Origin: Deroplatys truncata
Lineage: Eukaryota; Arthropoda; Insecta; Mantodea; Mantidae
Direction: 5' to 3'
Assembly (NCBI GenBank): GCA_030765065.1
Contig: CM060988.1
Coordinates: 175,873,065-175,937,064, forward strand
Length of the DNA: 64,000 bases
Shown here: in pieces, positions 991 to 41,100 of the stretch
Numbering within the stretch: position 1 is the stretch's first letter
Layout of the letters: each line of letters opens with the position of its first letter
Notes under the pieces: model-generated
Seen by the model: only the letters and a program-made list of their open reading frames with translations
The model's database searches: none
Told to the model about the DNA's origin: nothing
Made by a program: the position numbers and the translations under genes

Positions 991-1039
991 CCATAATTTC
1001 TGTAAAGAATTATTACGGCGAATAAAGAATTGAATTGAA

Positions 1040-1160
1040 ACCGTTTCCCGAAACATGTTAAGTGAATAAACTTAAGTGATGTTAATGTAACTAATTCCAA
1101 CTCACCTTAAGTAAACTCAAAAACACATTAGTGTTTCTAGCTTCTTTTTCACATATTAAT
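1040..1160 (+). mobile_element. Penelope-like element, 3' end fragment
   Basis: Shares gtttcccgaaacatgttaag, the TTAAGTGATGTTA block and tttctagcttctttttca with the ends of the large element at 25562-29494. It keeps the second half of the hammerhead-like motif but lacks the CUGANGA half. Confidence 0.75.
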
Positions 1161-6441: not shown

Positions 6442-9400
6442 GAGTATAGTGTTAAAATCGTATATTTCAATTGTAACCTGATTTCATGTGCTATAATGTG
6501 TAAAAATGCTATGTAATATTAATACAGAACAATATTTCATTGCAAATTGTTATATAGCGATGCTAATAGTAATTTACTTTGCACGTGATAAATTATTAAT
6601 GTGTTCTGAAGAGGTTAGGTTTGGCAAAGAAACAATGCGTACATACACATTTATGACATTGTCAAATTTTGTCCAATCTTGTCAAATGTTTAAAAACATT
6701 TGAACATTTTTCTTGTAAACGCTTGAATTGAAAAAAAAAAGTTTGATCATATACAAGGCTTAATTTTAGAAGTTTCGGTAAGAATTACCAAATATGCTTT
6801 GTGTTTTGTTTTAATTTATTTTAACATGCTGTTATAACTATCCATGAGTAGGCAACATTATAAATTGATATTTTTATCACAGATTTGTTTAGTCTGTACA
6901 GTCGAACCTCAATCTATCGTTTCTGAAACTCTCACTTCCCTCATTTATCACTCAATTTATGCAGTCCTGGCCAGTTTTTCATTACAACTTATGTAAATAA
7001 AACCTGCATTCATTGTTTCTCAAAGTATACTTTTCCTGCATTATTCATTAAAAAAACTTCAGTCCCAAACAAATTCTATCCTCGAAAGATCATTTTTAAG
7101 CTGGAATAATTGCAGTAACGATCGTGATTCACAAGTTGTTGCCAATACTTTTAAAGCAGCATGTACCAAACGGAGTGAGGAATTCAAGTAGCAAAGTCCA
7201 CACCTGTTTGGTTATGGCGGGGGGCAGATGAAGTGTGCAACAAGATGATAAAATCAGCATGCGTTTGTGATGAGGGTGAAGATATAGCAGCCGAAGCAGA
7301 GCCGACTTTTACCGAAGCTCCGAGTGCATATGAAACTGTAAGAAGCAAATTCAATCAACTGTTTTAGAGGAAAGTGACAAACACATAAAATGTGTAATAT
7401 GTAAAATTGACGCAAAATATGTTTATTTATAATATATTGGCTTTATTTATTACTTTCTCTACTACGTATAGTAAGTAGGGGAAGTATTGTATTCCATCCA
7501 AAAATTCGATACCGAGATTTCACCGGAAATACATGTTTTGAGATCCCCTGAATAAAAAAAAAGCATTTTTGGAAACATGTCCGTGTGTGTGTGTGTGTGT
7601 GAACAGCATAACTCAGAAACGAACAGTCGGATAAACACTAAACTTGGTATTTAGGTTCAGTATCTTCCAGAGATGCGACACGAAGTTTTTCAAGAAAATC
7701 CCCCCACCCCAGATTACCCTTTACATGGAACATTTTTCGAAAATTTTAATTTTCTCAAAAATGGCTCTAACGATTTTGATTAAAATATCATGAGAAATAA
7801 AATGTATATATTGAATTTTCTGGGAATGTCTCCAAAAGTATTCTTCATTGTGAACGACTTTTGCATAACTGGTAAACCATAAGAGATAGACAAAATTTTA
7901 CTACACAAAACATGTAGATCACGTTAAAATACACAATTTATGTCATATACATTTTTTTTGTTGCGTGAGCCATTTTCAAGATATTGCTTGTTATTCCCTT
8001 AAGTTTTTCAATACTTATTTTCTCAAATGGGAATTCGTTATTAATTTTTTTGTCTTGGATATGTAAAGAGTATTAATCTGTGGCAACAGGAATGATGCTA
8101 CACCTAGCAACCAGCTATTAAGAGATATGTATGTGCTTAAAGGCTACTGTATTTCTATATTGCCCTTGTAAATATATATTCCCCTTACATTTACAAGAAA
8201 ATTAGCAATAAGATAGAGTCTGCAAATGTTTATCTCGATTAACATGAAGTAGATGGAGAATAAGCGTTTGTAAAAATAGTTTGTACAAGCGTAGAGAAAG
8301 TCATGTGAGTGTAACACATCAGATTTTTTTTTGTATATGATTCATGCATTTCCCATATCCATCATTTTCTCACATTTGTTTTCTTTACTCGCTCCCTCAG
8401 AAAACGATGGATCACGGTTCAACTGTACTAATATTATAAAGAGAAAATTTGTATATACATATATGTACATGTAAGATAATCTCAAAAAACAATACACCAA
8501 AATTTTTTCACTATTGAAAAGCTCTATCTTTCTGATGGACATGAGCAATAAAACATCTAATATCAATTCCTAAATTACTACTAAAAGAACTAAAAAGTAT
8601 ACTGGTGTGCAAAATCTAAGGATGAGATGGGTAAAGTAACATAACAAATGAACTACTTGGTGGAAGTAGATGAAGGTGCGGGAGCATGTTGCCAGAGGTC
8701 TCTCACACGTACACAGAAAGCTGGACATGACATGGCGTGAGTGTAGCGAGCCTATAGTGCCAAATGGGTCTGTCCCGCAACACGGGGCAGTTGATGAAAC
8801 AGGACAAGACGGTGTGTGGCAATTAGCGAGCTGTTACGGTGCACTGTAGTGGTGTTCTTCATTGCAACATGGCCCATAGATACCATTTGGATGACTACAC
8901 ATGGGGAAGAATCACCGGGAAACTAGAAGAAGGGCGAAGTGTGACGAGTGTTGCTCAGGAGTTTGGAATTGCTCACAGCATTGTTTCACGTGCATGGGGA
9001 AACTTCAAAACCACAGGCACTGCTGTCCTAAGGAGAGGTGGTGGTCGACCACGCTCAACTACAGCAGCAGATGACTGCTACATTGTGCAACAGGCAAGAA
9101 GGGATCCATGCCAAACAGCGCGAGGAATTGAAACCACATTTAACAGGACAGCTAGATGCACAATCTCACGTTACACAGTGGTACGGCGACTACACAGAGG
9201 TGGTCCCTTTGCCCAACAACCAGTACATTGTGTTCCATTTACATCCGCACCGGTGGCACCGTTTGCGATGGTCCCAAGAGCATCAAAATTGGACCAATGA
9301 GGAATGGGGTCACGTGCTCTTCTCGGATGAGAGCAGATTCAGTCTAAGTAGTGATTCTTAACGTACCCTCATCTGGCGAGAGGTGGGAACACGTAATGAA

Positions 9401-15400: not shown

Positions 15401-18400
15401 CGTTAACTGAAGATTGTGGCAGACATTTTGTGGTGTACCACCTTGCAGTGACAGTCTTTTGTCCCTCGAATGGAACTGTCACAATTCCTTTGCATCAAAT
15501 TTTTCTATCCTTTCCTGGCACCATTGCACACATGCCTCTTTTTACTCATTTGTGAAGTGGTAGGGGATCCAATGACTGCAGAGCTTCCTGATGTGAAGTT
15601 TTTCTTTAAGAGTGGTGTTCACTGCTGCTGATCCAATATTCCGGGCTTCTTGAATCTGCTAATATGTGCAACAATAATCTTCCTCTGCTTTCATCATATT
15701 TTAAACTGTTGTTGCTATAGCCGGCTGTCCTAAGCAGTCTTCATCTTTGAAGAAATTCTTTCTCCTCTTCTTAACTCTATAAACCATTGATAAATCGTGG
15801 ATTGAGAAGAGCAAAGATTCCCAAATGCTCTATGCAATCTTTCAAGGCATTCTCTCTTCCTTAAACCAATTTTAAACTCATAGTAATTATCACATGGAAA
15901 TGCTCTTGCTTGGAACCAATCCAGGGTATGGCATAACAATGTCTGCTTGCACATACATAAAGTGCTGATGCTGCGCATTGTTGGAGCACACTCATACTTG
16001 CACTTTGAACTTAAATCTAAAGCTAGGAAGACCTGCTTTGTCTTAACACAGCTCACTGTTGCCCATTCTCAAAACTTTCAGAGTGACCCTATACACTATA
16101 CAGAATGTTTCAGAAATACTTTTACAAACTTCGGGTATGGGTTCCTTACACCACAAGAAGGAAAAAAGTTCATATGAACATATGTCCCATAATCCTCTGT
16201 TTTCTAGTTAGGAGGTGTTCAACACAGTGGTACACTTATAACACACAAAACTCATAATAAATGCTTGAAATGTCCTCCTCTTGCTTCTATGCATGCCTGT
16301 ACTCGTCGAATCATGGAATGTCGCACCCTGTCAAAAACTCCGGGATGGTGTCGAATGGTTTCGCAGGCTTCCATGACACGTCGATGAAGCGTTTCTGCAT
16401 CTGGGATGGCTGCTCCATAAACCAATGATTTAAGATGCCCCCAGAGGTAAAAATCCACAGGATTGAGGTCGGGAGAACGTGCAGGCCATGGAACTGGTCC
16501 TCCTCTGCCTATCCCTCCATGCTGTCACGTGTGATGTACCAGATGCTACAGCCAATTGTCTTGTACTGATACCTGGATCGTCTTCTTCACACTTTAACAT
16601 CTGTTCTTCACATTCCGGCATACGAACAACTCTTGGTCTTCCTCGATCTGCAACGGTTCCTGTCTCAGCAAGGCAATGATAAACAGTGACAAAGGTTGGA
16701 TGACTCGGTTGTCTTCGGTCTGGAAACTCATCTGATAGAGCCGTGCAGCCTCGCGTCCATTACCATTCGCGTGACCATACTAAAAATCATGTCTGCCTGT
16801 TCACGAAAAGAATATCCAGCCATGGTGGAATGAAACACGTGCAGTTAACTCATTACATGAACACAATTGAAACGTTGAAGACAGACTAATGACAAATGAC
16901 ACACATAAACAAGTCTCCATGGCAACACTTCGCCATCTACCGTATGTAGTACAATGGATCAACGCCATTGCATAGAGAAATGAAGTTTTGAGGTTGGACC
17001 CCGAAGGCCGTTGAACTCACACTTTCATTGTGACAGGAATAACGCGAAAACCAAGGATTATGGGACATATGTTCATATGAACTATTTTCCCTTCTTTTGA
17101 TGTGAGGAACCCATACCCTAAGTTTGTAAAAGTATTTCTGAAACACCCTGTATAGTGCATTAATGTTTAACAAAATGATCTGTCACTGCTTGCAACTGTC
17201 ATCCACTGACTTGGTTATAATTCCTGATACTCATCATCAAAGTTTATGTTGTGACAGGTTTTCATGTAAGAGCATTACACAGCTATGTTGCAATAAATAA
17301 AATAACAAAAAATGCAGTGCATAAGGACTTTGCATTCTCACCTGTGAAGCAATTGCGTTTCTTGTTATCCTCAATAGCATCCAGAACATTGCTGATGTTT
17401 CCTATACTACAACTGGAGAATTTGCTGTTGTTGGGACGATCTCCACTTGTTGCTGATGCAAACATTATGAAGTTGCCATTCAAACCTCCAGGCCTGCATT
17501 CTTGTGGATAATCATGCTGCAAATCACACAGCTCTACTTAGTACAACAATAAAAAAATATTTCTGATGGGCTACATTCACATTACTTTCTCTACCCATTC
17601 TTACAAAAGCTTTTTCTTCGACATACTTCATGTTAATCAAGATAAATATTTGCAGAAATGGTTTTATTAATGCATAATTCCTTGAAAGTACAAGAGGAAT
17701 AAGGGAACACAATAGGCTTAAGTGATATCAAATCTTATAAGAGTGGGTCACTATTTGATGGCAGTGAAATTTGATTCTCTTTGCATGACCACGAGGAAAA
17801 AAATGAATAGCAACTTCTCACTTGAAAAAGTATAAATACTTAAAAATCCAAACCAATAATAAAGAATATCTCAGAAATGGTTAATGCCACATACAATTTG
17901 ATTGGATATAAATTCTGTGATTTAACAAGGTCTATATTTTTTATGTAGTAAGGTTTTGTCTACTTCTTATGGTTAACTAGTTTTACAAATGTCATTCAGA
18001 ATGAAGAGGACTTTTCAGGCTTTTAATTTGTCATAAAATATCTTAAACATGCAGTATTTTAAACAAAATTGTTAGAGCTGTTTTTGAGAAATTAAAAAAT
18101 TATGAAAAACTTTCCATGTAAAGGGTAGTAGTTTGAGATGGGGTGGTAATCTTGAAAATCTTTGTGTCACATCCATGAGGGATGCTGAATTTAAATAAAA
18201 AGTTTGATTACTATATATTGTAATGAAAAGAAGCTAGAAACAGTGATGTGTATTGAATTTATTTAAAGGTAAGTCGGAATTGTTACACTAACATCACTTA
18301 AGTTTACTCACTTAACATGTTTCGGGAAACAGTTGTTCCCATCCTCAGAAGGTTAATTCGAATTAACCTTCTGAGGATGGAAACAACTGTTTCCCGAAAC

Positions 18401-21400
18401 ATGTTAAGTGAGTAAACTTAAGTGATGTTAGTGTAACAATTCCGACTTGCCTTTAAATAAAAAAAGTTTGATATTTAACTGACTTTTCATTTTTGAATTA
18501 TGCTGTTCACACACACACTCACACTACACACAGACCTTTTTCTAAAACTGTCTTTTTTGGATTTAGGGGTCTCAAAACATGTTTTATCCGCCACATTGTA
18601 ATATTAAATTTATATAAATAATTATAAAGTAAATATCAAATTTGCAAAAGCTAGTATTGTTTTCTTGGAAACAAAATGCTATATAGGGTTAAATTTTCTG
18701 AATCCCCAGAAAAAAGTTATAAAGAGATTTTACTGTAATAGATGAGACCAGACTAAAATGGTTTGGCCATGTGAAAAGAATGGGAAACGATAGAATAGTA
18801 AGAATGGTACTAGAATGGGAAAGAACAAGACCAAGAGAACATGGATGGGGTCCAAAGAAGTATGGCGTCTAGAGAACTATGAGATGAACATGCACAGGAT
18901 AGGGATTTATGGAGAAATAAAATTATGAATGGGTTGTACGAAAATAACTGTTTTTCTAAATAAATAAAAATCAACTACTTCACTTCAGCTACTTACTGGT
19001 GATCCAAAATTGTGCCCAATTTCATGAGCAAGTGTGAGCTGTGAAACCTTTGGTGGGACCCGACTGTTGTAATTCACAAAGGTTATTATGCCAGTATTCA
19101 AACTTCGTTTAGTTGACTGGTACATGCCCCCGACAGTTTCAGTATAGGTTTTGTACTTCTCACATATGCCTCCCGAGGCTCCTGAAACCAATCACAAAAC
19201 AGCAATCCAACTGAAAACTTGGAGTACTAATAATTTGAGACAGAGTGGAACAATTCTGCAATAACCAAAAACCTGCAATTCAAAGTACTATTATAAAATA
19301 CCAAATTTACAACTAGCAGACATTACAGTAAGTGCAGTACCCTCTTATTATTGTTATTAGTCCCTCAAATTTCAATCATATCAATTTAACATTCTTTAAT
19401 TACTGAAAGCTTTTTAGAAAATTAAAGAGTTGATTTTTTTTTTTCCAAATGTATCTACTCTACATAAAAGCCAGCAGTCTGAAAAAGAAATTGTATAGCA
19501 TCTTTGACATTCATTTAATTTAACAACAGAGCCATAATTTAATTTTGAATGTATCGTGACCATGCAAGCAAAGTTACCTGTGGACCACTGGAGTGAACAC
19601 ATGCTGGCCCATTGACCTGGATTGGGGCTTTCCGCCAGCCCTTCAGAACACTGGCCCACACAACAAACCCTTTATGTACTGCCTCCTTACAGTTTGGTAA
19701 TCTCTGCCACAAAAGATTCCTTTTGAGTCGGTTAGCTTCCCCTTCAAGAACATTCCATTTTGTATGCCAGGGCTATATAAAGGGCTGCTGGTGCTCGGTT
19801 GGATAGTTAAGAAGTGAAAGATTTCGAACGGTTAGAAGTGGACAGTTAAGGTGGCAGTTCAGAGTACACTTCAATTGAGCATTGTGATTCAATGGTTCAG
19901 TTGTGTTTTGTTCTGCGCGTGTGTCAACAGTGACTCAAGTGAAACATGTTGTGCTAGGCTGAGTGTCTAAGTGATAAATAAAGTGTGTTTCACGTCAAGT
20001 GGTGTTCTCGTTTATTACAGTATATATGATCTGAAAAAAAGGCAGCTGATGTGTTACATTCACATGACTTTCTCTACCCAATATCATTTATTCTTTTAAT
20101 TACTACAAACTATTCTTACAAAAGCTTATTTTTCTATCTACTTAATGTTAATCGAGATTAACCTTAGCAGAAATAGTTACATTTTGTTGAAGATACAAGG
20201 GCGATAGGGGAAACTGAATCAACGATCAGATTAATAGACAAGAGAAGAGACAACTTAACATACTGTTTCTGCTTCACTTCCTTCACTTGAGTAAGTGAAG
20301 TAATAGCAGTGTGTTAACCCTTCAGAGGCAAAATTTGCATATATATTCACTACTGATGGCTATATGTCTGGTTCATTTAGATACTTATTCTATGTTCAAC
20401 AAGCCATCATAGTTGGCATTTTGCTTACATAAATGGTTATTAGATGTCACTATATTCAAACAAGCATGTTGATGTGCTTCTGCTTTCTTTTCATCACTTG
20501 CAGGAAGACAATAACTTGCAGAAACTAAAAATCCTGAAAATAATTTGCCCGAGATGGATTAAGTTGTCTCATTCTTCTATTAATATGTTACACTTCATTG
20601 CATTTAGTTTCTTCATCATGTATGAATCAATAGTTACATGTTTAAGAGCAGAATGCTAAAGGCTGGCTTAGAAATTCCATACTCTTTTCATGGCATTGCG
20701 AAAAACAGCTGAATAGCAAATCATTTAAAAGATTAAGAAAGTATTGAAAAATTCAAATCAATAGTAATGATATCTTAGAAAAAATAAAACAAATTTGAGT
20801 TTTTATTTATGGATGCTCTTTACCTGCTATGGTTCTTAGCATCCCATTCTATATTGGAAGTTAAAAACCAAAAATTTTTCTCAGAGATGCTGACATCACA
20901 AAAAGTTATTTCAAATATACCAGATGTTACAGAGATCTAAATTTTTTATATATTAAACGTATGTCTAATATATAGTATGCAGAATTATGAAATGAGAGTG
21001 GTACTAAACAAAAGAGAAACTCAAAGATTTTTTTTTCATTAGAAGTTGGCTGTTCTGTCACTCTGCTGCAAAAATAACATAAAACAAAATGGCATCTCTG
21101 CAGCAATGTGCATAGACTATTTTGTGGTATGCAGAGACAAAATCAATAATTAAAGTTCAAAGAAATTACCGGAGAAACTGTGGATGAGGTCCACCTGATG
21201 GGAAAACCATTAAGGCATGATGTCAGAAATTTCTGGTAACTGGAAGTGTTAAGAAACAATCCACAGGTTCTCGTCAATGTGTTACAGAAGAGAAGATTGA
21301 AGAAATTAGAGCAGGATTTCAGAGAAGTCCACAAAAATCAATTCACCATGCATCCCAATAGTTCAATGTGCCAAGATCAATTGTACATCGAGTGCTTCTT

Positions 21401-22709
21401 AAGTGGCTTCATTAGTACCCCTACTGTTCAAAAAATAAAACCAGATGACAGGGTACAACGACAGGCATTCACTATCAATATGCTGGATCATATTGACAGG
21501 CACCCTCAATTTCTTGGAAATGTCTTGTTTTCAGACGAAGCAATGTTTCATGTATCAGGATCTCTCAATTGGCACAATGTAAGGATTTGGAGTACACAAA
21601 ATCCACATGTCTACTGTGAACATGCCCAGGATAGCCCAAAAGCAAATGTTTGATGCAGTCTGATGAAGAACAGAATTATCAGTCCTTTTTTCTTCCATGA
21701 GAATTCAATAACTGGCCATGTTGGAACTGTTCTTGTACCTCCAGGTCATGTAATCTTTCAACAAGACAGCACCCCCCCCCCCAATAGTGAATTCAGGATG
21801 TATGGGATTCCCTTACAGAAACTTTCCCGGTTCACTGAATTGTATGTGGCGGATCAATTAGGTGGCCACCACATTCCCAGACAACACTCCACTAAACTGT
21901 ATTCACTCTTAGGTTGATCTGCAGCAAAACAAACCCACATGGTCAGTGCACTGTGGTGCAACACAGAAGCAATGCGCACAGGAAAGTAGTCCCATGCTAA
22001 TAATCTGAATTTTAGAATGAATTTATCCTTAAATAGTATAATATTCCATACAAATACCTAAGGTTGTATTTAATGCTGATTTATAGCATAAAACAGAGCT
22101 ACAAGTCCCATGATTCAATTCGTATGAGTCACCTGACATCTTGGTAGGCGCAGAATATTGTTTACAGCCAGAAATAGAGTTGGGTCGAGCAATTTTTTTG
22201 CAGTAATCGATTCATGCGATTCGTTCACGGTTGATGAATCGATTCATACGATTTGTTCAGATTCATAAATCGTCCTCTTACTACCTGTCTGCTAGTCTCT
22301 CCTAGCGCACGATTCATTCATGAATCGTCACTTTGTCTGCTGGTCTACCCTACTGCATGATTCAATCATGAATCGTATGTACCCTTGTCTGCTCGCCTGC
22401 CTTAGTGCACGATTCGTTCATGAATCGTTGCCTTGCCTGCTGTCTATTCTCACTCATGATTCTTATTTGAATCGTCCCCGTTTGTACTTTGCAGTTTGCA
22501 GCCAAAATACGCAATCAGGACTTTTTTTTTGTTACGATGGGGACTATGATCTTTTTCTTTGGCATATAGAAGACAATGTATGTAAAAGCGCTTTCCACGT
22601 TATTTTGGGTAATACACTTGGAGTTTCCTGAATTTGTCATAAAAATCAACCTGTGTGATTCCACTTAAGTTACTATTACATAAGGTATTATGCAAAGTAA
22701 TTATGAAGA

Positions 22710-23146: not shown

Positions 23147-26100
23147 TTGTTATTATTCGTCACTACTACCGAAGTTGCACGCGAAAATAAGCTATATAAT
23201 TTTTATAAATACGTGAAAAATTATAAACCCGGTATGCAGAGAATAATAATTTTTTACATAAATATTACATCAGCATATTCGAGGTACTTTTAATGCATTA
23301 GAATTGGCTTAATTATATCGATGCATGTTCTTATACTTTTAATGTAGATTATAGTATAAAAATTAATACCTTTAAATTATATAATTTTAAAAGTTATTCA
23401 AACCAAGAATTCAAAAAAATCCCTATTTTTCCTCCGTTTTGCATATATTCTGGTATAGTATATTATAATACTTACTACACTGTAATCATACAATACTGTG
23501 TATCAGATCTCTCAATAAAGTACTGAAAATTACGAGGGCTGATCAATAAAGACTAAGACTTATTTTTTTTCACAGATATTTATTACTCCATTTCAATGTT
23601 GACATGATCTTTTTCAAAGTAGTCCCATCCTAACTGAATGCACTTTTTATAGCGTCTCTGCCAGTCCTAGAACACATGGTGCAGGCCATTCTTCGTCAGG
23701 TCTTTGAGAATCGCCTCACTTTACTTTAGAACTGCTTCAGTGCTCTCAAATCGAATGCCCCGGAGCTTTGCCTTTAGTAATGGGAATAAAAAGAAATCAC
23801 AGGGGGTAAGACCGGGGTTTTAAGGCAGATGCGGCACACAGGTAATGTTGAATTTAGCCAAAAATTCCTGGACTTGATTTGTGACGTGAGGCCGCACGTT
23901 GTGATGAAGTCGCCACCCATTCCGATGATGTTCTGGACGTTTCCTTGTAATGTGCTTCCTCAGTGTAAGCAATACTGACGTGTAGTAGCTGCTGTAACAG
24001 TAGTGTGAGGGGGGGACTGCATGCTGGTAAATCATTCCATTCGAAACACCAGGCCCACCTTGCTTAGCACAGAGGACTCGCCCTTCTTTGAAGTCCTTGA
24101 ACCACCTAAACACCGTTGCACGAGGTAGTGCATCTTCACCGTATGCTTGCTTCAGCTTTTCGAAAGTTTCAACGCTGTATGATTTAAATGAAAATAAAAT
24201 TTTATTGCGCTGTATTGCTCCTCTCGTGTCGCCTCCATTTTGTGGTATGCAAAATTCAAGTAGGGTCAACAATATACAGCATTACTACCAACCTACCGTT
24301 ACAAGAGTGCTGTCGCTTATGGACATTATACATGAAACCATATCAGAATCAGAACTACTCTCCAAAATAATGACAAGCTTATCCACAATTCCACAGCACT
24401 GTCACACTTAAAACAAGTTCCCACATTTTATCCTTTTCTATGTTGTATTATGTCTGTTTATATTCCCTGCTCGCTTTCGTTACACTTCCCACTGAAACGC
24501 CTGTAAAATCCGATATTAGTTTCGTAATATGCAATAATGCAAGTGTCGGGTATTTTTGTAATAGTGAGTTGAATATATGAAGTATTGTTTGTTTTTAGCC
24601 ACTTTTTAACTGTTTCCCTCTTTTGTGTTTGAACAGTTTATTCGCACTACATGCACCTTCCTCTGACATGTGAGCTCAAATACCAACTGACTAAATCACA
24701 AGATTTGACCTGAGCTGAGCATATGTGTGTTAGTGTATTATGAATGACTGTTCGCTTATCAAGTTATCACATATCCTGTGTTACACAAAGTGTTTATTCG
24801 GTACTCAGATAGCACCTCTGGGAATTCATTGCTGCATTTCTTGTATATGTAACAGAGTGGCAGTCGTTTATACGGTTAGTGTTAACAAGCAAGATGCTCT
24901 CGGCGTTAGCGCAATAGCAGGCGAAAATCATATTTTGTAATCTCTTAACAGCTAATATATATCCATTACCTTTAACGATGAGTTCTTATAATAACCGCAA
25001 TAAAATGTACAGTTCTATACCTTTCCTGCTCTAATATTTCATAATACAATACATATATTAAGGAACTATTTACGTTGGCATAAGAGTATATTCTTGGGTT
25101 CGTGACAAGCCGAAGCATGTGCTTCTGTTTACATCAGAGGGAACTCTAGTTTGGAATGGACAGTATGTATTATGTGAAAACTATGTAGATTTTATGTTAT
25201 TTAAAAACTATGGGTCCAAAGAGAAGGTACAAAGGTTTAAAATATCACCTACTGTGAATATATAAAAAATTACACCAACAACAGTAGAAACTATTGGCAT
25301 TTACCACGCCAAGCTAAAGCATTCTCTATACCACCCAAACAAATCGCATCACACAAATATACATACACGTATGTCATTGGCTGCCGGTCTCCACCCCGTG
25401 ACCAAGCACCAACCAAAGCAGCAAATGAGACGTCAAACTTCGAACATATTAAGTGCCTACTCACACTGGATTGACCAACGATTGGCCAAAACAGCGAATG
25501 AGGATGTCAAACTTTGAACATAGTATGCGGGACCGAGAAAACAAACTAAACAAACCTTATTGTAATGAAAAGAAGCTAGAAACAGTGATGTGTATTGAAT
25601 TTATTTAAAGGTGAGTCGGAATTGTAACACTAACATCACTTAAGTTTACTCACTTAACATGTTTCGGGAAACCGTTGTTCCCATCATCAGAAGGTTAACT
25701 CGTCGACTGGCCCGTGTTGTTGGTGTTTCCGTTTTTTGGACTGGATCCTGTGGTGGCATCTTGTGGTGGAGAAATGTACTTCCAGAGAGGATTTGGTGGC
25801 GGCAAATCAAAATTCATTAGATGTGTGTTGTGTTTTAGAATGGTGATCTTCTCCCATGCATCTAATTCGGCTGCAAATTTGGCTGGTTTGACTAATGTAA
25901 TATTGGGTTTGATGTTGTGATTAGTGATCCAAAAATGGTGTGAAACTGCAGATTTGTCCATTTGTTTGTATTTAATACATCTCATGTGCTCCTTTAGCCT
26001 AGTTTCTAAGTTTCTTTTTGTCTTACCAATGTATACTTTATTGCAATCTGAACAATTGATTTTATAGATTCCAGCTTTTTTGTCTTGTGGAATGGGGTCT

Positions 26101-29100
26101 TTTAACTTGTTACAAAGTAATTTCTCTATGTTAAATTTGTTCTGTGGAGCTAGGCTGATGTTATGTTTCATGAAAATCTTCTTAAATTTGTGAAATGTTC
26201 TTGGGTGGTATGTGAATTTCTTGAACTTTAGTTCTTTATCTTGCTGGCTGAGATTAGTTGTGTTTCTGATGTGCATCTGTCGTTTGAATTTTGCAATTTT
26301 TTTGTCAATAGTTGCTTTGTTGTACCCATTATGTATTGCTGTGTCTACTATATGCTGGTATTCTAACTGGTATTCTTTTTTATTTAAGGGGGTATATACC
26401 AGTCTATGTGTTAGGCTGTTTAGTACTGCATGTTTGTGTGTGGTTGGATTGAAACTCTTATTTTTTATGTAATTAGTAGAGTGTGTTGGCTTCCTGTATA
26501 TGCCAAAGGTTAGGTTCTTTTGTTCTCTGATGATTTTTAGGTCTAAAAATGGTAGCATGCCTTCTTTTTCTATTTCTATGGTGAATTTTATTGATTGGTT
26601 CTGTAGGTTTAGTAAGGCTAAGGAGTCTTGTATGAACCTATTAGGGACAACAGCGAAGATGTCGTCAACATATCTGTGCCAAACTTTAAACATGTATGGA
26701 AAGGAAGTTGTTATGTGTATTTCTAAGTAGCTCATAAATAAATCTGCCAAGAAGGGTGAAAGTGGGTTGCCCATGGTTAGACCAGTTGGTTGTTGATAGA
26801 ACTTCTTATTGAAACTAAAACAATTTTGTCCAATGCATAAATTGGTAAGTTGTATGAGGTCTTCTATTTCTTCTTCAAGTAGGTTAGTCTGCTGTAGCCA
26901 TTTCTTTAATTGACGCAGGAGTTGATCTGTAGGGACACTTGGAAATAGTGCAGTGACATCAAAGGAAACTAATCTGTCTTCTGGTTCGAGTTCCAGGGAT
27001 TTTATCTTCTGTATTAAATCTTCTGAATTCATTATGTTTTTGCTGTTGAATTTTGGTAGTGAAGAGAATCTCTGTACTAACCATTTTGCCAGTTTGTAGG
27101 TAGGAGAATCAATATTGCTGACGATTGGTCTCATCTTATTACCCGGTTTGTGTATTTTAGGTAGAGCATACATTCTTGGTAAAATGGGGTGGTCTGGTTT
27201 TAATCTAGATTTATCAGTGTCTGTTATAGTTTTGCTTTCCTGGATGGTTTGATTGAAGGCTTTTAAATGTGATTTTAATGGGTCTTCTTGAATTTGTATG
27301 TAATTTTCTTGTTGCAACATATTTTCTACTCTGGTAATATAATCATCTTTTTGAAGTACAACTAGTTTATTTCCCTTGTCAGCTTTTGTGTATACTACTG
27401 GTTTTGATTTTAATGTTTTGATCACATGTTTGGTTGGGAAATTGTTATGTTTATCTGCTTGTATTTCTTGGAGAACTATTTCACATTCTTTTTTTATAGT
27501 GGTTTTACTATTTTCATTTAGGTTGTAAGTAGCAATCTCAATGTCTGCGACTATTTCATCGGTTGTTTTTGTGTAGCCAACACATGTTTTTAGGCCAAGG
27601 TTTAATACCGATAATTCTGCTTTGGTGAAAGTTAAAAATATCATAGGGCTTGATATTTTAGACTCAGGCTTACGAAACGATAGAGAACTTTGCTCCATGG
27701 ATCATGTCAGCTGACAAGGGAAATAAACTAGTTGTACTTCAAAAAGATGATTATATTACCAGAGTAGAAAATATGCTGCAACAAGAAAATTACATACAAA
27801 TTCAAGAAGACCCATTAAAATCACATTTAAAAGCCTTCAATCAAACCATCCAGGAAAGCAAAACTATAACAGACATTGATAAATCTAGATTAAAACCAGA
27901 CCACCCCATTTTACCAAGAATGTATGCTCTACCTAAAATACACAAACCGGGTAATAAGATGAGACCAATCGTCAGCAATATTGATTCTCCTACCTACAAA
28001 CTGGCAAAATGGTTAGTACAGAGATTCTCTTCACTACTAAAATTCAACAGCAAAAACATAATGAATTCAGAAGATTTAATACAGAAGATAAAATCCCTGG
28101 AACTCGAACCAGAAGACAGATTAGTTTCCTTTGATGTCACTGCACTATTTCCAAGTGTCCCTACAGATCAACTCCTGCGTCAATTAAAGAAATGGCTACA
28201 GCAGACTAACCTACTTGAAGAAGAAATAGAAGACCTCATACAACTTACCAATTTATGCATTGGACAAAATTGTTTTAGTTTCAATAAGAAGTTCTATCAA
28301 CAACCAACTGGTCTAACCATGGGCAACCCACTTTCACCCTTCTTGGCAGATTTATTTATGAGCTACTTAGAAATACACATAACAACTTCCTTTCCATACA
28401 TGTTTAAAGTTTGGCACAGATATGTTGACGACATCTTCGCTGTTGTCCCTAATAGGTTCATATAAGACTCCTTAGCCTTACTAAACCTACAGAACCAATC
28501 AATAAAATTCACCATAGAAATAGAAAAAGAAGGCATGCTACCATTTTTAGACCTAAAAATCATCAGAGAACAAAAGAACCTAACCTTTGGCATATACAGG
28601 AAGCCAACACACTCTACTAATTACATAAAAAATAAGAGTTTCAATCCAACCACACACAAACATGCAGTACTAAACAGCCTAACACATAGACTGGTATATA
28701 CCCCCTTAAATAAAAAAGAATACCAGTTAGAATACCAGCATATAGTAGACACAGCAATACATAATGGGTACAACAAAGCAACTATTGACAAAAAAATTGC
28801 AAAATTCAAACGACAGATGCACATCAGAAACACAACTAATCTCAGCCAGCAAGATAAAGAACTAAAGTTCAAGAAATTCACATACCACCCAAGAACATTT
28901 CACAAATTTAAGAAGATTTTCATGAAACATAACATCAGCCTAGCTCCACAGAACAAATTTAACATAGAGAAATTACTTTGTAACAAGTTAAAAGACCCCA
29001 TTCCACAAGACAAAAAAGCTGGAATCTATAAAATCAATTGTTCAGATTGCAATAAAGTATACATTGGTAAGACAAAAAGAAACTTAGAAACTAGGCTAAA

Positions 29101-32100
29101 GGAGCACATGAGATGTATTAAATACAAACAAATGGACAAATCTGCAGTTTCACACCATTTTTGGATCACTAATCACAACATCAAACCCAATATTACATTA
29201 GTCAAACCAGCCAAATTTGCAGCCGAATTAGATGCATGGGAGAAGATCACCATTCTAAAACACAACACACATCTAATGAATTTTGATTTGCCGCCACCAA
29301 ATCCTCTCTGGAAGTACATTTCTCCACCACAAGATGCCACCACAGGATCCAGTCCAAAAAACGGAAACACCAACAACACGGGCCAGTCGACGAGTTAACC
29401 TTCTGATGATGGGAACAACGGTTTCCCGAAACATGTTAAGTGAGTAAACTTAAGTGATGTTAGTGTTACAATTCCGACTCACCTTTAAATAAAATAAACA
29501 AACCTTATTTGGTGCATTTTATCCTAAACTTTTATAATGAAACAGTACAGGAAATGAGGAACGTGCTAACGGGATTCCACTGTATTATAGAAATTTAGTA
29601 TATTGTATTTTAATAAAAATTGTTAGTCATTTAACTTGGCTCTGTTGGTTGTTTTCCACTAAGTTTTTTAAACGACAGCACCTAGCATCTGTCACATTAT
29701 ATGAATGTTACTTTTCTGGAGCTGATACACACCTGAGGCTGATGCTACCCATGCCAGACCAAGCGTCCCACCGGTGAAGTCTCTGTATGTAAACACGTAT
29801 GCCAGACAGAAGTCTTCATGGTTGCCCAACGAGTGCAGGTTGAGGAAGTTACTCACATCTATGTTCTCATGGCAAAATGGATTTGGTTCACCACGATAGT
29901 GAGGATGACAAGGTGAATCATCATCAATCTGGAAAATATACAAAAATGCTTTCAGTGTCGCAGTACAGTGAATGCCGTGCTCAAGCTCAATAGCTTTTAA
30001 TGCACCCTTCCCAATGAAAACTCAATTTATACAAAAACAACTGCAATGGTAAATCTAAAAGCAATTTGGAAAGTAAACTAAAAAATTCTCATGTGTGACA
30101 TTCACATAACTTTCTTTAAACTTTATGTTAATCGAGATAAACCTTTGCAGAAATACTTTAATTACACATTTTATTGTAGGTATAAAGGGGAATAGAGCAA
30201 GCTGAATCGACAGCCAGATGTTTAAAGGTGGGGTGCCGGCCTTAAATTTCCATACTCTTCCCATGACAGCGCAAGAAACAAAGAAATAGTGAGAGCAGAT
30301 TTAAAAAAATCTGATGTGTTACACTCACATGACTTTCTCTACTCTTGTACAAACTATTTTTACAAATGCTTAATCTCCATATGCTTCATGTTAATTGAGA
30401 TATCGAGATGTCAAACTTATTGCTAATTTTCTTGTAGATGCAAGGGGAATATGGTAGGTTATAAGCAATAGTCAAATATTTTAACAGCTGGTTGCTATGT
30501 GGAGTATTCCATTCTCTTTGCATGTCCAGGACATAAAAAAAATGAATAACGAATTTGAGAAAAAGTATAAGTATTGGAAAATTTAAGGGAATAACAAGCA
30601 ATATCTCAAAAATGGTTCACTCAACAACAAAAATGTATGAGATAAATTGTGTATTTTAATGCGATTTACATTTTTTTGTGTAGTAAAATTTTTTCTATTT
30701 CTTATGGTTTACCAGTTATGCAAAAGTCGTTCACAATAAAGAATACTTTTGGAGACATTCCCAGAAAATTTGAGATATACATTTCATTTGTCATGAAAAT
30801 ATCTTAAACATATGATATTTTAATCAAAATTGTTAGAGCCATTTTTGAGAAAATTAAAATTTTCGAAAAATGTTCCATGTAAAGGGTAATCTGGGGTGGG
30901 GGGGATTTTCTTGAAAACCTTTTGTGTCGCATCTCTGGAAGATACTGAACCTAAATACCAAGTTTCATGTTTATCCGACTGTTCGTTTCTGAGTTATGCT
31001 GTTCACAGACACAGAGACACACACACAAACATGTTTCTAAAAATGCTTTTTTTGGATTCAGGGGGTCACAAAACATGTATTTTCGGTGAAATCTTGGTAT
31101 CAAATTTTTGGGTGGAATACAATACTTTCCCTACTTACTATACGTAGTAGAGAAAGTAAAAATAACAAAGTATTCAAAATTTCAAACCAATAATAATGGA
31201 TATCTGAGAAATAGTTGATGCCACAAAAAGGATTATTGGAAATAAATAGTAAGTGATACAGAGATCTACATTTTTTTACCAGTTATAGGAAATTATACAA
31301 AAATTCCTTCCGAACAAATAGGACTTCAAAGGTTATTCCCAAAAAAATTCAGGATATACATTTTATTTCTCATGTAAATATATTAATCAAAATCATTAGA
31401 ACCATTCTTGTTCAAAACGTTTTCCATGTAAAGGGTAGTTTGGGGTGAAGGGAGTTTCTTAAAAATTGGTGTGTTCCATCCTTGGAACATGCTGAACTTT
31501 AATACCAAGCTTGGTATTTATCCAAGCTTTTGTTTTTGAGTTATGCTGTTCAGAACACATATGGACCTTTTTTTGGGTTCAGGGGATCTCAAAACTTGTA
31601 TTTCTGGTAAAATCTTGAAATCAAATTTTTGGGTGGAATATACTACTTGGTACATGGTAGAGAAAATAAAAAGTTTGATGTGTTACATACATACGGCTTT
31701 CTCTACCACTACTGTTTGTTTTTATATCAGTTCTATATAGTAATCAATCTTGCAAAAGCATATTTTTCTATTTCATGCTAATTGAGATATATGTCTGCAC
31801 AAATAGTTTTATTATACATTTGGTTGTATGTACAAAGGCATACAAGAAGCTGAAGCAACAGTTGAAACTTTAAAAATCAGGTCGCTATTTGCTGCCTTTC
31901 AAACTCCATACTTGTTGCACAACATCAAAAGAAACAAATAAACAGTCAGCAAGTTTTTCCAAAAAATGTGAAGTATTGAACAACTCACACAGAGAACAAC
32001 AAATGTATTTATAATAGTTAATGTCACAAAAAGTTTATTGGACAATTTGGGTGTTTTAAAAGGTCTTTTTAAAACACCTAATATTTTTCATGTAGTTAGT

Positions 32101-35100
32101 TTCTGTCTTAACTCCTGTGGTTTTCCATTTTACAAAATTACATGAAACTCGATCAGAATGAAAGAATACTTCACCGGCTATTCACAGAAAATTCAAGATA
32201 AACAGTTTATTAGTCAGACAAACATCTTAAACATATGGTATTTTAGTCAAAATTATTAAGAGCTGTTTTTGGGAAAATCAAACATTAAAACAACTGAAAA
32301 ATTCAACGGCACAGCCAGGATTTGAACACGGTTCTCCCGCTCTCTGTGCGGTTGCTCTAACCATTGAGCTACTGTGACAACATGCCGGTGGGGCATTGAA
32401 TTCCCAATTATTCAAGTTGTTTCCCAGACATACCTACTAAGGCATCTCCCTCGAGATGACAAACTTAGCGGCGACCTGCTTATTGCAAGTACTTCAGTGC
32501 TGGGTAAATAGATGCCCCACCGGCATGTTGTCACAGTAGCTCAATGGTTAGAGCAACTGCACGGAGAGCGGGAGAACCGTGTTCAAATCCCAGCTGTGGT
32601 GTTGAATTTTTCAGTTGACTCTATATTAAAAACTTGCCTAGACGAGGCTAAGGTCTATTAAAAGTATAATTAATTTATACAACAATAAATAATTAAAACT
32701 ATTAAAACAACTTTTTCATGTTTTAGAATGTTTGGGGTATATTTACATGATTATATACTACATGGGCCAGAAATTCAATATCGACCAATCCAATTCATTG
32801 CCCATGTCAGTTTGAACCAAACATGGTAGACTTATCACTGAAATCTTGCCGAGAGGAAATTGCCGTATCTGATTTGCAATTGTTTGAAAATTATCACAGC
32901 TAATTCATGATTGTTTGTGATCTGCAAGTTAAAGAAATGAAGAAGACTTCCTTAAAGAACACAGAAGAGTGTGCTACCTTACATTGGCATGCAATAGGCC
33001 TAATTAAATAAAACATAAAATACCTATGTTATTTTCACTTTATTAATATTGTTTATTGAAATGCTTCATTAAACATACAGTCTTAGCAAATACCACTCAT
33101 GAATTAGATATTAATCAAGCACTCAAGCAAGTATCAACAATATCAAAGTCACTCATGATATTACTTATGAAAATCCTCATGTCACATCTTGGAAGATGCT
33201 GAAGTTCAACACCAAGTTTGGTAGTAAGTAAAAACTGAAGCTAGTAACAGCAAAGCAAATACACAAATTATAAATTACTTATATATATTTTGTGACAACA
33301 CATTTAAATGGACATACAGATTTAATGATTCTGTGAAAAAAATTGTTTTACTTCCAATACATGGCAATACTAATTCAAGTAATCCTTCAACTAGCAGCAT
33401 TACTGTAAACTATGCAAATAAACGAGTACACAAGGAAAAGAAAACCTGATGATGCAATCAGATGATACAAAGTATGTTCTCCTGACTTTTGTTTTAAAAA
33501 AGATAAGTGAGATATTGTCACAAAATATATATAGTAATAGTTTGGTATTGATACAACCTTTTGTCTCATTCTTTCTCTCTCCCTCTCCTTTTTACTTTCT
33601 CCATCACATACATAGTAGGTAGAGAAGGCATTGTATTCCAAACGAAAATTCCATACTGAGATTTCACCAAAAATACAAGTTTTCAGATTCCAGAAAAAGA
33701 ATTTTTAGAAGGGGGGGGGGTGTGAGAGTGAGTGTGTGTGAGAGTGAGTGAGTGAGTGTGTGTGAGAGTGAGTGAGTGTGTGTGTGTGCGCGCGCACACG
33801 TTCATGTGAAAAAATACCAAACTTGGTATTTATGTTCAGTACCTTCCAAAGATGTGACACGATTTTCAAAAAAAAGTCCTCCCACTTCCAACTACCCTTT
33901 ACATGGAACATGGAAACAGCTTATACAATTTTGATTAAAATACCATATCTTAAAGATATTTACATGACAAACAAAATGTATATCTTGTATTTTCTGGGAA
34001 GAGCTTATGAAGTCCTCTTCACTCTGAAAGAATTTTGTGCAATCTTGTATAACTGGTAAATGTTAAGGAATAGAAAAAAATGCACACTACACAAATTGTG
34101 TTGGTTTCTTTAAAACACAGAGTTTATTTCAAATAACTTTTTTTGTGGCATAAGCCATTTCCAAGATATCCCACATTAATGGTTCAAATTTTTCAGTACT
34201 CTGTCATTCTTTTTTTAAGTCCTGTCAACATTACATGGAAAGTAAGGCAGCATATAGCATCTAGTTCTGAAACATTTGAGCTACTGCTACTCCCTTTGCA
34301 TTCGTAATGAAATGTGTAATGTAGCTGTTTCTGCAACAGTTTATATTGATTAAAATGAAGTAAACAGAAAAATAAACTTTTGTAAGATAAGTTTTTATAC
34401 TGATTAATAAATGATACTAGGGAAAAAGTAATGTGAATATAACACATCAGATTTTTCAATTTTAACATCAATCACAGACATTATCATCTTAGAATGTTAG
34501 TCTCAGTAACCTTTACCTTTATCCTCTGCACTTCAAATTTTATATCACGATGTTCGACACGCCCATCAAATTTGGTATCACGATAAATATAGTTCACAGC
34601 AGTCACGTGATGAGCAATTAATGATAATATTTCCTCTCGTGTCTTTTCTTGATCGTAGTTGACCTGTAACATAAATGTAAAACAAACTGCTTCATAAGAA
34701 CTATCCATGCCGTATTGTGTATCTCCGGAAATGAAGTCCATCATTTGGAAATGCATTCATAACTTTTAAGATGTTATAAACATAGCAGATGGTACAGTAC
34801 ACAACTCTAAGGTCATCTATCTGCTTAAGTGAACTACTCTCCACAACCGGACTCAAACAAATCCTTATGGATTTTTTTTCTCCCTCTAGGGAAAAAGGTC
34901 AAGAATGTGAGCATGGCTTAACTTGGAACTACACTTTGGGTGGGGTAAAGTAAGTGAAAACTGTAAAATGAAGCCTATGTTTAAAATTAGTTTTCTACTG
35001 CTTTTAAGCAAAATAAAATATCTATTGTTTTAAAAGATCAATAATGATGATGAACTTTTTCAATAATGTAGCAACAATATTGTCATTTACACTAATGTGA

Positions 35101-38100
35101 TCTAGTTCGGTCTTTTGTTTTACTTTTACTTGTGATGCAGCAAAATGAAATACACACAAAGCAGACTCTTCTTCCCTCCATTTAACTTGCAGTAGAGTTC
35201 AACACAAGTCTTCAACCTCTCGCAGTAGCAGCACTAAATGTGCTTCACAACTACTATTGCAACCTCACTCAGAGAACAGCACTTGGTGTCATATCAGAAC
35301 AACAACTCACTATCTCACTTACTAACAGCACGCTCGCTTATATAGCCACTGTAATTTTTAAGAGTTCTAGAATATTTGGGAGGTGGGGAGAAAGAAGGTT
35401 CCAAAACAATCCCATTAACTCCTGATAGCGATTCTGATGTTTATGCTAGGTGAGAGTGGTACTGCATCTAAGGTGCATTGCAAAATGATATGATTAATTG
35501 ATAGAAACTCGTCATGTATAGAGAAAAATTTGAATCAAATATATTTTTACTTATATACAGAAAATGATATAACTTTTATGGTATAATTAGTTACAAACAA
35601 AAGCATTCCTTTCACACACTGCTGAATACAAATAGCAACTAGTGTTTAATATCCTATAAATGAACCCTTTTTCAGAAATAACTGAAACACATGACCCCTC
35701 ATGCTCTCTGCGAGTTTCTGTAATATTGGCAGTTCAAGTTCATTCCATGCAGATATCACAGAGGTCTTTAATTCTTGCGCATTGGTGTATTGCTTTCTAT
35801 CACAATAACTGATCTACATAAGATTCCCCATACTTTCTCCGTAGGGTTTAGGTCTGGATAAATGGCAGGCCATTCCATAACAGAAAACCTTAGCGACAAA
35901 ACCAATTCTTTGTGGATGCTTGTATTGTCCAGCTGAACTATCCAATCCACTGTTCCAGTCCTCTGTGCAACAGTAAAAGGTGTTCTTCAAGCAATGTCTG
36001 ATAATTTATGGCTTTCATGCAACCTGCAGGGAATACAAGATGTGCTTTCCCTCTGTATCCAAAACCACCCCATACCCTCAAGACTTTTCCCCTTGCTGCC
36101 TCTTTGAAAACACCTTCTCTTCTTTTCTGGGGTCATGCCAGCTGTACGCCCAGCCATCAAGCCCATCTAAGTTGAATTTCTTTTCATCACTGAATATTAC
36201 GTGCTTCCATTCTTCCTTCCAGTTGACATGTTCCTTAGCCCTCTCAAATGTGGTTGCTTTTTCCGTCTCTTGTTTGTTTGTCTAACTAGCCCGGACATCG
36301 ATTTTTGAACATTGACAGTGAAATCACGAGCAAGTTGTCCCAGCGATGAATCACCAGCACTAAGTCTTCTGATCACTTGCCCCTTCTGTCCAGACATGAG
36401 TTTTTGAGGTCTTCCAGGTGGCCATTTTGTTATATAATTACTTCCTAGCTTCAGGAAGTTAATCATGCATGGTGACCTGCCAAGCTTTCTTGCTATTTTC
36501 CGAGATGAATGTCCTTCTTCTTTTAAAGCTTTAACTTGACCTTGCTCAAAGCTGGACAATCCTGCCTTCCTATCCATATGCTCTTACTTCAATAGTCAGC
36601 GTAGCAATCATGCACTCTTCACAAACACAACTGACACAAAGCTAATCCCTCCATAGCTGCAGCATAGCATATGAGTACCAAGGTCATGCAATATTCAGAC
36701 TGGTCTTATCATTTTGCAACAGAACTACTTTTTGTCTTCCAACCTGTGTGCAGCAAATGCATTTGATTGTAACTGACCCTATGATGCAGGTAATATAATT
36801 TTATGTACCTAAGTAAAAATATATTTGATTTTAGTTTTTCTCTATAGATGACGAGTTTCATCAGTTGGTCTTATCATTTTGCAACCACCTTACTTATCTC
36901 TATCTCCGAACTGGGCGGTCAGTCAGTGACATCCTTCCATATTGAATTTGATTATCAAATTGACTTGATTCATAACTTCTGTAAATTAACACACTTAATA
37001 AAAACTCCAGAGTGTAACAGTAATGTGACTTTCTTTAGATTTATTTTCATAGCTAGTTCATAAATCATTCTTTTTAAAACTATACTTTTATTTTCAATGC
37101 GCTTCCATTTACTGTGTTTTAAGTATTGACAAGAAATGGTTTTAAATGGTTAATATCATGGTTTGTCCACTATGCTAAAATGCAAGTTGATATATAATTA
37201 TGTTAGCCATGATGTTGCAAATGCTAATGAGAAAAGAAGAAAGCAAAAGCTAACAGTTGGTCTGCCATCCTCCACTATGACATTGGCACTCTGGAACATG
37301 TTAATAGTATATTGCAATATGAGTATGGAAAGTGGATTATTACAGAATTGATGAATAGTTTAAAAAGAAAAGATGAAGTGAAGTGTTCTCTATTTTTGAG
37401 ATTCTGTTATGAATTTCATATGCATGTATTGCAGACTTTTTTTGCATCATCGACTATCTTATTATTTTTAATTATTAATTTAAAAAAACAATTTTAATCA
37501 ATTACCCATCATCACCTTCAATTTCCTGTAACACAATGCTGCCAATTGAACAGCTGGTTCACAATAACTGAGAACCGTAACCGGAATGAGAACGACAAAG
37601 TTAAAACACATATATTGTAATGTGAGCGTTCACAATTAACAGGAAGCTTTCCCAGGTCCTGAGAATGGGAAACGCACTTACCCAAATTTTAACTTTCTCA
37701 TTCTTGTTCCCAGGCCTAGCATATTAGATCCACATTGTGCTTATTAGACTATTCACTGTAGAGATTATCCTAGGTGGCTGTGACATGAAACAGCCGCTAG
37801 AGCTCTCTCTGGTTGCAAGCTGACATTAAACTAGAAGAATTTCTACCTTATGTGCATCCTAACCTCTGATCCCGACATCTGCAGATCCATTGAGCATTAA
37901 TTCTTCTAGAGATAGGATCATCTGTAGTTTCTTTATATGCAACTCAAAACTGGCTGTGGCCTCAACAATACAAAAACCGGTTGAAATTAACAAACACTTT
38001 AATGTATGCCATTAACCCTTTCACTGCGGATGTTGGAACAGTTCCATCAATGCTAATCATTGCTCCCCTTGCGAATGATATAGCATTCCCGACACATTGA

Positions 38101-41100
38101 TCTTGGCAAAACAACTTGCTGTTCATAAAGAGGAAGCAGTCTAGCTCAGTCTTGTCTAAACAGTGTTGGTCTGCCATCTGTTGGGGTTGTATTTACTCAA
38201 GCTGCAACTCTTCTTCTGCCATGTGGTGCAATCTAAAGCTATGCATGGTAACTTTCTTCCCGACATTTGCATAACGTAGAAGCCCATCACGTGACTCTGG
38301 GAATCACAGATGTACAAAATGATGGTTTCTTCCAGCAAACACACGTATTATGCAGGATGCAAATTTACTGGTGGAATTTGAAGTGTTATCATCTGATTTT
38401 TCAGATTATGAGTTTAATAACAATGAGAGTGAAAGTTGTATCGAGGATAATGCTATAAACAGTGAGAATGATGGCAGTGATGTACAATCAGAACCCATGC
38501 AACATTGCTAAAAGAAGACACATTCTTCCCTCCAGTGGCAACAGAGTATACTCAAGCCAGTAATTCATACTTTTGATGATAATTCAGGTATGCAAGCAGA
38601 TTTGAATGAAAATTTCACAGTGACTGATATTTTCAAATTATTCTATCCGTTGTATATTATGCATCATGTTGCAAATCAGAGTAGTAATTACTTTCTTGTG
38701 TGAGAAATTACCACCAAGCCCCCATTCTCATTTACAGACTTGGACAGATACTTCTCCTGAAGAACTTTACAGTTCCTATGGCTTGACAATGCTTATGACT
38801 AGAGTAAAGAAACATACAATAGCAGGATATTGGACTAAAGTTCCCCTCATTGCCACTCTGCAATTTTCGAACCACATGTCCAGGGATCGATATCTTTTAC
38901 TTCCAAGACTTTTGCAGTTCAATGATAATAAAACACAGGCTAAAGGAGACAGACTGCATAAATGAGACCTGCTGTTGAACATTTCAGACGTACTTTCAGT
39001 GAGTTATTCACACTTTTATAAAACCTCTGCATTGACAAAAGTCTTATGCTATTCAAAGATCACCTTTTGTTCAAACAATACATCTCTTCCAAAATACACA
39101 GGTTTGACATAAAAGTGTTTGTGCTCTGTGATTGTGAGACTGGGTACATACTGGATCCTCACTGTGTATACTGGAATCACCACAGAAACTGCTGATGGCT
39201 GTGAACTTGGGATGTCTGGGACTGTGGTACAAACCCTCATTACAAAGTACCTGCATAAAGGGCACAAATTATGGTTAGATAACTGGTACTCCAGTACTCT
39301 TCTTTATAACTGGTTACATGCAAATGGAACAAATGCTTGCGGCACTGTTAGAAGGAACAGAAAAGAAATGCCAAGACTGGCAGCAAAATTAAACAAGGGA
39401 GAAGTAGAATCTGCACATACAGACAATATGTAGTGGAAGGAGAGGCGAGAGGTGTATGCTGGCTATTTTCTATACAGACTCAATGAGACCGACAGGCAAA
39501 GTTGACAAACACACAATAATGAAACCTGACTGTATTATAGACTACAAGAAAAATATGGGTGCTGTAGACAAAATAGATATGAAGATAGGCTCCTTCGAGT
39601 GCGCAAGGAAGACTTTGAAGTGGTACAGAAAACTCTTCTTCCATCTATTAGGTATGACTCTCCTAAATTCACATTCACTATACAACATAAAAACTGGTAA
39701 GAATATCACATTGGCTGATTTTCAAACTACTCTAATTAGAGAGCTTCTCCAAGAATTCCATATACCAAGACTAACCAGTAAATCTAGGAGGCCTTTATCT
39801 GGCGACCAACCCCTAAGACTGACTGAAAGACATTTTATCTCACTTATACCAGCAACACCAAATAAAAGAAAGCCTGCCAGAAGATGTCATGTATGCTCCA
39901 ACACTGTCCTTGGCCAGAATAAAAGTACATGGTGTGTCAAATGTGGAGTGAGTTTGTGTTTACCCCTGCTTCGGAATGTACCATACCCAAGTCATATTTT
40001 GAAAGTATTATCTAAAGGTGGTAATCTCTTACTCTGTATAACTTATAGTTATATCTGCTTCATACCTGTAGAAAGAATTCCTTATACATTAAAGTTTATA
40101 CCCCCTGAATTGTTAATCAATTTCTACTCATTAATATTTTGGCAAAGTATAGGTTTAAAAAGTAAGGCCCCAATATTTAGAATGTTATATAACAGCTTTC
40201 CATTAAGGTTTTCTTTTTTTGGTCCATGGGCAACCCTTTGGTAAGGTGTGTTGTGTATGGTATTTTTTCCTATTTAAAACTCTTTATTTTTTAAACGTGC
40301 GACATTAGAGTCATCTACAACAACTTTGGTGAATGTTTAATTCTGCATGATATTATATAGAATATATTAATTAATGTGTACTTAAAATAACTCAGTAAGG
40401 AGGTTCTATGTGCTTGCTAATACCTCAGCAGTGAAAGAGTTAATAAAGGAAACTTGTTGCAGGTAGAGGAATTGGAAATAGTAACAGCTCTGCATTTAGA
40501 TAATGTTTACTCTATCGAATTTTGATACTGGCTAACTCGTTGGCTGAATTGGAAGTAGGTGAAAAAATAAAATTGGTCAGTTAAAAACAAATAAAATCTT
40601 AATGTGCCAAAATCAGCTTTCCATTTTGCGACCGATATGATCAATATATATTGCCGTTCTTGTTACCAGGTTACTGTGAACCAGCCTTTAGTCAGTCATC
40701 CTCCATGGTCTAGGGGTGCCTCTAGTTTCCAAGGTCATGGGTTCAAACCTGACAGAGGACAATGAATTTTCTTCAGGCGTAAAAATCCTTAGCATGGCTT
40801 GCTTTGGAAGGGAAGTAAAGCCGGTGGTCCCGTGTCATAGATTTACGGCACATAAAAGAGCCTCAAGCCTGATAAAGAGGCCTCTGATTATGCAAGAGGA
40901 GGGTATCAAGTGACATTAGTTAGGCAACAGTAAGCCACATTATAACTAATGTCATAGGTATCACTGCTAGACTTACACCTCATTAAGCCGGGATTGCAAT
41001 GAACTTTACTTAACATGACAGGATGTAATGCAAAGTTAAGATGTGCTACTAAAGTAAAGGTATAATTAAGATGCACTTAACGTAATGGGAGTGACTCTTG

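Follow-up and report, generated by a model that had tools for sequence, protein, structure and literature searches.

The 64,000-nucleotide window analyzed here (36% G+C, zero N) contains two 5′-truncated copies of a GIY-YIG Penelope-like element (PLE), arranged head-to-head at 25562-29494 with the 3′ ends of both arms facing outward (Table 1). All readings rest on one assembly. An inverted-repeat search placed the untrimmed arms at 25590-27384 and 27709-29503, separated by a spacer of 324 nt (the original prediction gave 325 bp). Trimming to the element leaves arms of 1,785 nt each, at 25600-27384 and 27709-29493. A window-wide scan for inverted-repeat pairs of at least 40 nt lying within 6 kb found 19, and two of these are built from the PLE: the main dimer and a pair at 18258-18461. 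The arms of the two PLE pairs are 100% (rounded) and 98% complementary, respectively, and those of the other 17 pairs 74-92%. We did not find direct repeats of at least 30 nt in 25000-30200, and thus no direct tandem or pseudo-LTR copies. The missing tandem limits the use of the label "full element" rather than the assignment to the family; truncated copies of known PLEs can presumably lack it too.

Table 1. Positions of the PLE-related features in the window.
Feature	Positions	Strand	Remarks
Lone tailed terminal fragment, 5′-truncated, from a related PLE	1039..1148	+	alignment
Tailed left arm (38-nt tail) of the short second inverted dimer	18220..18359	-	alignment, direct comparison
Tail-less right arm of the short second inverted dimer	18360..18461	+	inverted-repeat scan, comparison
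Left target-site duplication, 15 bp	25547..25561	.	exact match to the right one
38-nt 3′ "tail" of left copy	25562..25599	-	missing from right copy; letter-identical to 18220-18257
Left PLE copy, 5′-truncated	25600..27698	-	arm 25600-27384 plus 314 nt (27385-27698) missing from right copy
667-codon frame, RT and GIY-YIG, probably 5′-truncated	25695..27698	-	left copy; Pfam
Head-to-head junction	27699..27716	.	12-bp perfect palindrome 27705-27716, AGCT at 27709-27712
Right PLE copy, 5′-truncated, tail-less	27709..29493	+	in-frame stop TAA 28463-28465
Hammerhead-like core CTGATGA...GAAAC just past the ORF	29403..29432	+	pattern scan; left-arm counterpart on minus strand from 25690
Right target-site duplication, 15 bp	29495..29509	.	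exact match to the left one

The target duplication is TAAACAAACCTTATT, which occurs twice on the plus strand of the window and zero times on the minus strand. One extra A at 29494 precedes its right copy. When random pairs of flanks were compared, 5 of 3000 shared at least 15 bases; the five matches are 16-39 bases long and are taken to be repeats. The alignment of the arms and the exact 15-bp match bear out two earlier claims, that two PLE copies in inverse orientation lie inside a target duplication and that this duplication is 15 bp long. The ends of the dimer are asymmetric. The left copy carries a tail and the right copy ends just short of it, at TTTAAATAAA. The tail falls within the 30-40 bp of an optional one-end PLE tail; it is 38 nt in both dimers and is missing from the opposite arm in both. 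Since both right ends run into A, the final base of each can be placed only to within a few letters. The left junction, ...CCTTATT, contains an ATT motif. The motif was not seen on the right, where the bottom strand ends in ...GTTTA. The right junction shares bases with the target (AAATAAA, where the element stops, against TAAAC).

The second dimer (18220-18461) reuses the two end points of the main dimer, the 38-nt tail on the left and TTTAAATAAA on the right. Its arms of 102 nt have 2 mismatches and abut without a spacer, and its center is a 42-bp perfect palindrome (18339-18380). By eye, its putative target duplication reads TTTAAATAAAAAGTTTGAT at the left end, and the right end has this sequence plus two A. 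An automatic search gave 12 shared bases, with the right-hand match consisting partly of element sequence, and on the left 11 bases between the tail and the presumed duplication are without explanation. The right junction shares about 10 nt with the target (TTTAAATAAA), and the ATT motif is not clean, by eye, at the ends of this dimer. The second dimer is probably older than the main one. As the two differ in target, junction and, by arm divergence, probably age, we took them as independent events.

The 12-bp palindrome at the main junction is TGTCAGCTGACA, with AGCT inside. The longest strings that this inner junction shares with the outer flanks are 8 and 6 nt, which is no duplication beyond chance (78 of 1500 random pairs reach at least 8). 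A nested second insertion was rejected for this reason. The arms mismatch at 4 of 1785 positions (left-arm sites 26630, 27055, 27217, and 27317), and all four differences are transitions. In the coding sense they amount to two amino-acid changes (P/L and T/I), one silent change and, in the right copy, one stop (TAA, at 28463). Arms of about 1.8 kb that differ at few positions had been described before, and the young age deduced for the insertion is supported. However, gene conversion between arms can erase differences, so arm identity may overstate youth and 4/1785 is not a clean clock.

In the 667-aa frame of the left copy, Pfam matches to RVT_1 (aa 182-353, E 9.2e-12) and GIY-YIG (aa 542-625, E 5.1e-6) pass the curated cut-offs; a third, sub-threshold match, UPF0515 (E 0.001, aa 528-563), overlaps the endonuclease. 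The motifs ADKG (aa 106), YVDD (343), GIY (543), and YIG (556) are all present. A CxxC lies between GIY and YIG (aa 543-558), which is the zinc-finger type of PLE endonucleases. A reverse transcriptase (RT) followed by a C-terminal GIY-YIG in a single frame is the Penelope/Poseidon-type plan. The unbroken 667-codon frame with YVDD and GIY...YIG is thus as first described. Its description as "apparently intact" holds for the RT and endonuclease domains, but not for the whole ORF. At the junction, a single codon separates an in-frame TGA from the frame's ATG, and the frame is roughly 160-170 aa shorter than the intact rotifer Penelope ORFs of 830 and 838 aa, below the length of a complete ORF. 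Excerpts of the rotifer report also give a stop-bearing ORF of 842 aa and a usual range of 800-900 aa (PMC3846280). Given the stop and the published lengths, the 667-codon frame is probably not a complete PLE ORF. The predicted dimer of the Anolis PLE is described as having residues 27-173 in an extended helix (PMC11167929), and most of the matching part is probably absent here. The short ORF characterizes this copy rather than the PLE family, and since the frame is probably incomplete the left copy should not be called autonomous. We found zero PDB sequences resembling the frame at E 0.01. Pattern searches for relatives gave 3 matches in viral_contigs and 10 in genome_contigs, none confirmed; these are viral and prokaryote collections, and the result hence has little weight. 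The original prediction did not include the cut 5′ side of the frame, the stop in the right copy, the left-only 38-nt tail or the dimer at 18220-18461.

The pattern CTGANGA...GAAA, a hammerhead-like core, has 10 matches in the window on both strands, and half of these (5/10) are at PLE ends. Rfam gave no hammerhead match, either in the whole window at the gathering score or, with E limits of 1 and 10, in the terminal region on the right. PLE hammerheads are described as usually minimal and without helix III (excerpts of PMC6155905), which may explain the Rfam miss. The predicted RNA folds of four terminal stretches were not clearly better than those of shuffled sequences (z 0.27, -0.07, -0.57, and -1.38; the tailed arms of the two dimers gave 0.27 and -0.57). 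We therefore place no weight on an apparent pairing between the tail and sequence upstream of it.

The main dimer is probably the product of one integration of a Penelope/Poseidon-type PLE by two-sided target-primed reverse transcription. The anatomy is read from the sequence, and the order of steps is what we infer from it. Cuts by the element's endonuclease, 15 bp apart on the two strands of an AT-rich site, would leave 3′ overhangs. From its 3′ end, the top strand would prime cDNA at the downstream start site and give the left copy with its tail; the bottom-strand 3′ end would prime at an upstream start site, 38 nt off, and give the right copy without it. Neither cDNA would reach the 5′ end of the RNA. 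The unfinished 5′ ends would then join head-to-head via a short self-complementary sequence (AGCT in the 12-bp palindrome), and gap filling of both overhangs would create the 15-bp duplication. A single integration is favored because one duplication encloses the dimer and the inner junction has no duplication beyond chance; this agrees with the original prediction, which had both copies arise in one event. Template switching, its suggested mechanism, is possible for the center, but the tail asymmetry common to the second dimer better fits two independent RT starts. The self-complementary centers (TTCGAA in the second dimer and AGCT in the main dimer) appear suitable for the pairing of two cDNA ends.

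The two-sided route fits published PLE anatomy (PMC3846280) and biochemistry (PMC11167929). In excerpts from the Anolis study, the purified PLE protein cuts and extends both target strands, and favors AT-rich sequence that contains an ATT motif; its reverse transcription begins at a pair of neighboring internal positions, and the stretch separating them is the genomic "tail" (PMC11167929). The main dimer would match the expected product if both strands were extended and the unfinished cDNAs joined. The same excerpts describe start sites as alike on the top and bottom strands and as lacking homology to the target (PMC11167929). Equality of the strands gives no support to strand-specific starts. 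Contrary to that report, the bases shared with the target here suggest that microhomology may have helped to choose the RT start. The asymmetry in two of two dimers could also have arisen by chance, if the choice between two start sites is random. A further point against the two-sided reading is that certain rotifer inserts with inverted pLTRs are described as having no target duplication (excerpts of PMC3846280).

Other routes could lead to a similar arrangement. By self-priming, a left-primed cDNA would fold back near its 3′ end at self-complementary sequence and copy itself into the second arm. The palindromes at both dimer centers are in keeping with this, the 324-nt spacer could represent the loop of the fold, and self-priming on an antisense template has been proposed, in the excerpts used here, for head-to-head PLE inserts (PMC3846280). 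However, self-priming would copy the tail too, and in both dimers the right arm stops before the tail, beside the target. Because both right arms end just before the tail, an extra switch at the same element position would be needed twice, and we consider self-priming unlikely. The same observation bears on an inverted duplication at the DNA level, in which a break and fold-back replication would have doubled an existing single PLE copy. Such replication can yield short palindromic centers, which both dimers have, but it should also copy the flank or the tail. That both right arms end at one and the same point, next to a target duplication, makes this origin highly improbable.

Near-identical long palindromes are difficult to assemble, and the assembly could have turned a single real copy into a spurious inverted pair. 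Nevertheless, 4 mismatches separate the arms, their two ends are unlike (the tail, and 314 nt more on the left), an exact 15-bp duplication bounds them, and the short independent dimer, which is easier to assemble, follows the same plan. An assembly artefact is therefore very unlikely. Several copies of the same family do lie within the 64 kb, so that a second copy could, by coincidence, have landed in the opposite orientation against the 5′ end of the first. Two separate insertions are scarcely credible, however, with a single 15-bp duplication around both copies and a second dimer of the same plan 7 kb away.

Two-sided priming has a parallel in L1 twin priming (5′ inversion), in which reverse transcription is likewise primed from either side of a single cut and an inverted join results. 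The two L1 segments derive from separate stretches of a single RNA, with hardly any overlap, whereas the PLE arms have 1,785 nt in common and point both 3′ ends outward. As the arms share this much sequence, L1-type twin priming from a single RNA is disfavored.

Within the PLEs, the closest likeness is to the Penelope elements of Adineta vaga (Pen2a_Av and others), which in the excerpts of PMC3846280 combine RT and GIY-YIG with 5′ truncation, head-to-head inverted terminal parts, an optional one-sided tail, a target duplication in several inserts, and junction palindromes. Their inserts have inverted pLTRs with a 31-bp tail optionally on one (38 nt here) and, where a length is given, duplications of 8-10 bp. 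Pen2a_Av has an inverted 181-bp pLTR beside a full element, whereas the arms here are 1.8 kb and hold most of the ORF. Poseidon_Ac (PAc) of Anolis carolinensis shares the protein plan, the AT-rich target, and the tail between two start sites; excerpts of PMC11167929 also describe a hammerhead motif, seen here as a by-eye core only. PAc loci are tandem arrays and PAc starts in vitro are non-homologous to the target, whereas here there is no direct tandem copy and short homology is possible. The tail of the D. virilis element is given as 30-40 bp (PMC11167929), and 5′ truncation and tandem copies are described as general PLE traits (excerpts of PMC8969392). With inverted head-to-head inserts, a one-sided tail and a target duplication already described in PMC3846280, the locus is not a new kind of insertion.

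What the locus adds is a clear pair of dimers whose ends seem to record different start sites and can be counted genome-wide. Excerpts of the Anolis study describe the later steps of PLE integration as so far lacking experimental validation (PMC11167929). Our literature search, mostly at title and abstract level, did not find asymmetric dimers read as two-sided priming. A young dimer together with a second one that has the same end points favors two-sided priming over the self-priming of PMC3846280, and a genome-wide count of ends suggests itself as a way to separate the two. We tentatively raise a stronger reading, although we think it doubtful: PLE integration may be two-ended and asymmetric by rule. 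The one-tail head-to-head dimer would then be what integration ordinarily produces first, and neither an accident nor a by-product of self-priming; the two strands of one cut would always be extended from different tail-edge start sites. The equality of the strands in bulk in vitro, as given in the Anolis excerpts, leaves room for asymmetry within each single target. The main dimer as a whole is a long, fresh-looking, and easily read example of a known PLE arrangement.

The stretch at 14215-14845 is what remains of an element from a second family of Penelope-like elements (PLEs), a diverged one. The endonuclease portion of this remnant is 52% identical over 139 aa to the main frame, the 667-codon reading frame of the head-to-head PLE dimer, and at the DNA level the remnant and the dimer are approximately 60% similar across 594 aligned positions. 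A scan for the CTGANGA...GAAA pattern picked up CTGAGGA at 14811, a hammerhead-like core with which the remnant continues. A similarity search across the window found no inverted partner for it. Another PLE endonuclease remnant (45% identity, 134 aa) is decayed, with at least one in-frame stop seen by eye.

Five DNA transposon remnants were identified with Pfam, and the matches among them include Transposase_1, a mariner-type domain, and DDE_Tnp_1_7, a piggyBac-type one. A Pfam search of the frame at 21246-21653 returned no match.

Features identified in the window, with the supporting matches
Feature	Position	Match
Diverged PLE remnant	14215-14845	
Decayed PLE endonuclease remnant	41927-42325	
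DNA transposon remnant	3401-3970	Pfam
DNA transposon remnant	39456-40244	Pfam
DNA transposon remnant	36197-36577	Tc3-like helix-turn-helix (Pfam)
DNA transposon remnant	52480-52905	DUF4817 helix-turn-helix domain; Tc3-like, under curated cut-off (Pfam)
DNA transposon remnant	8839-9300	Tc3-like, under curated cut-off (Pfam)
tRNA-like pair	32291-32617	Rfam tRNA, 36 and 33 bits
Exon-like piece	5109-5486, minus strand	ADAM10 cysteine-rich domain (Pfam, E = 2.1e-13)

The two tRNA-like sequences are mutually inverse and sit within a 127-nt inverted repeat whose arms are separated by 73 nt; they are perhaps a pair of tRNA-derived SINEs or a foldback element. The exon-like piece with the ADAM10 domain, which together with the transposons in the window suggests an animal genome, probably belongs to a host metalloprotease gene.
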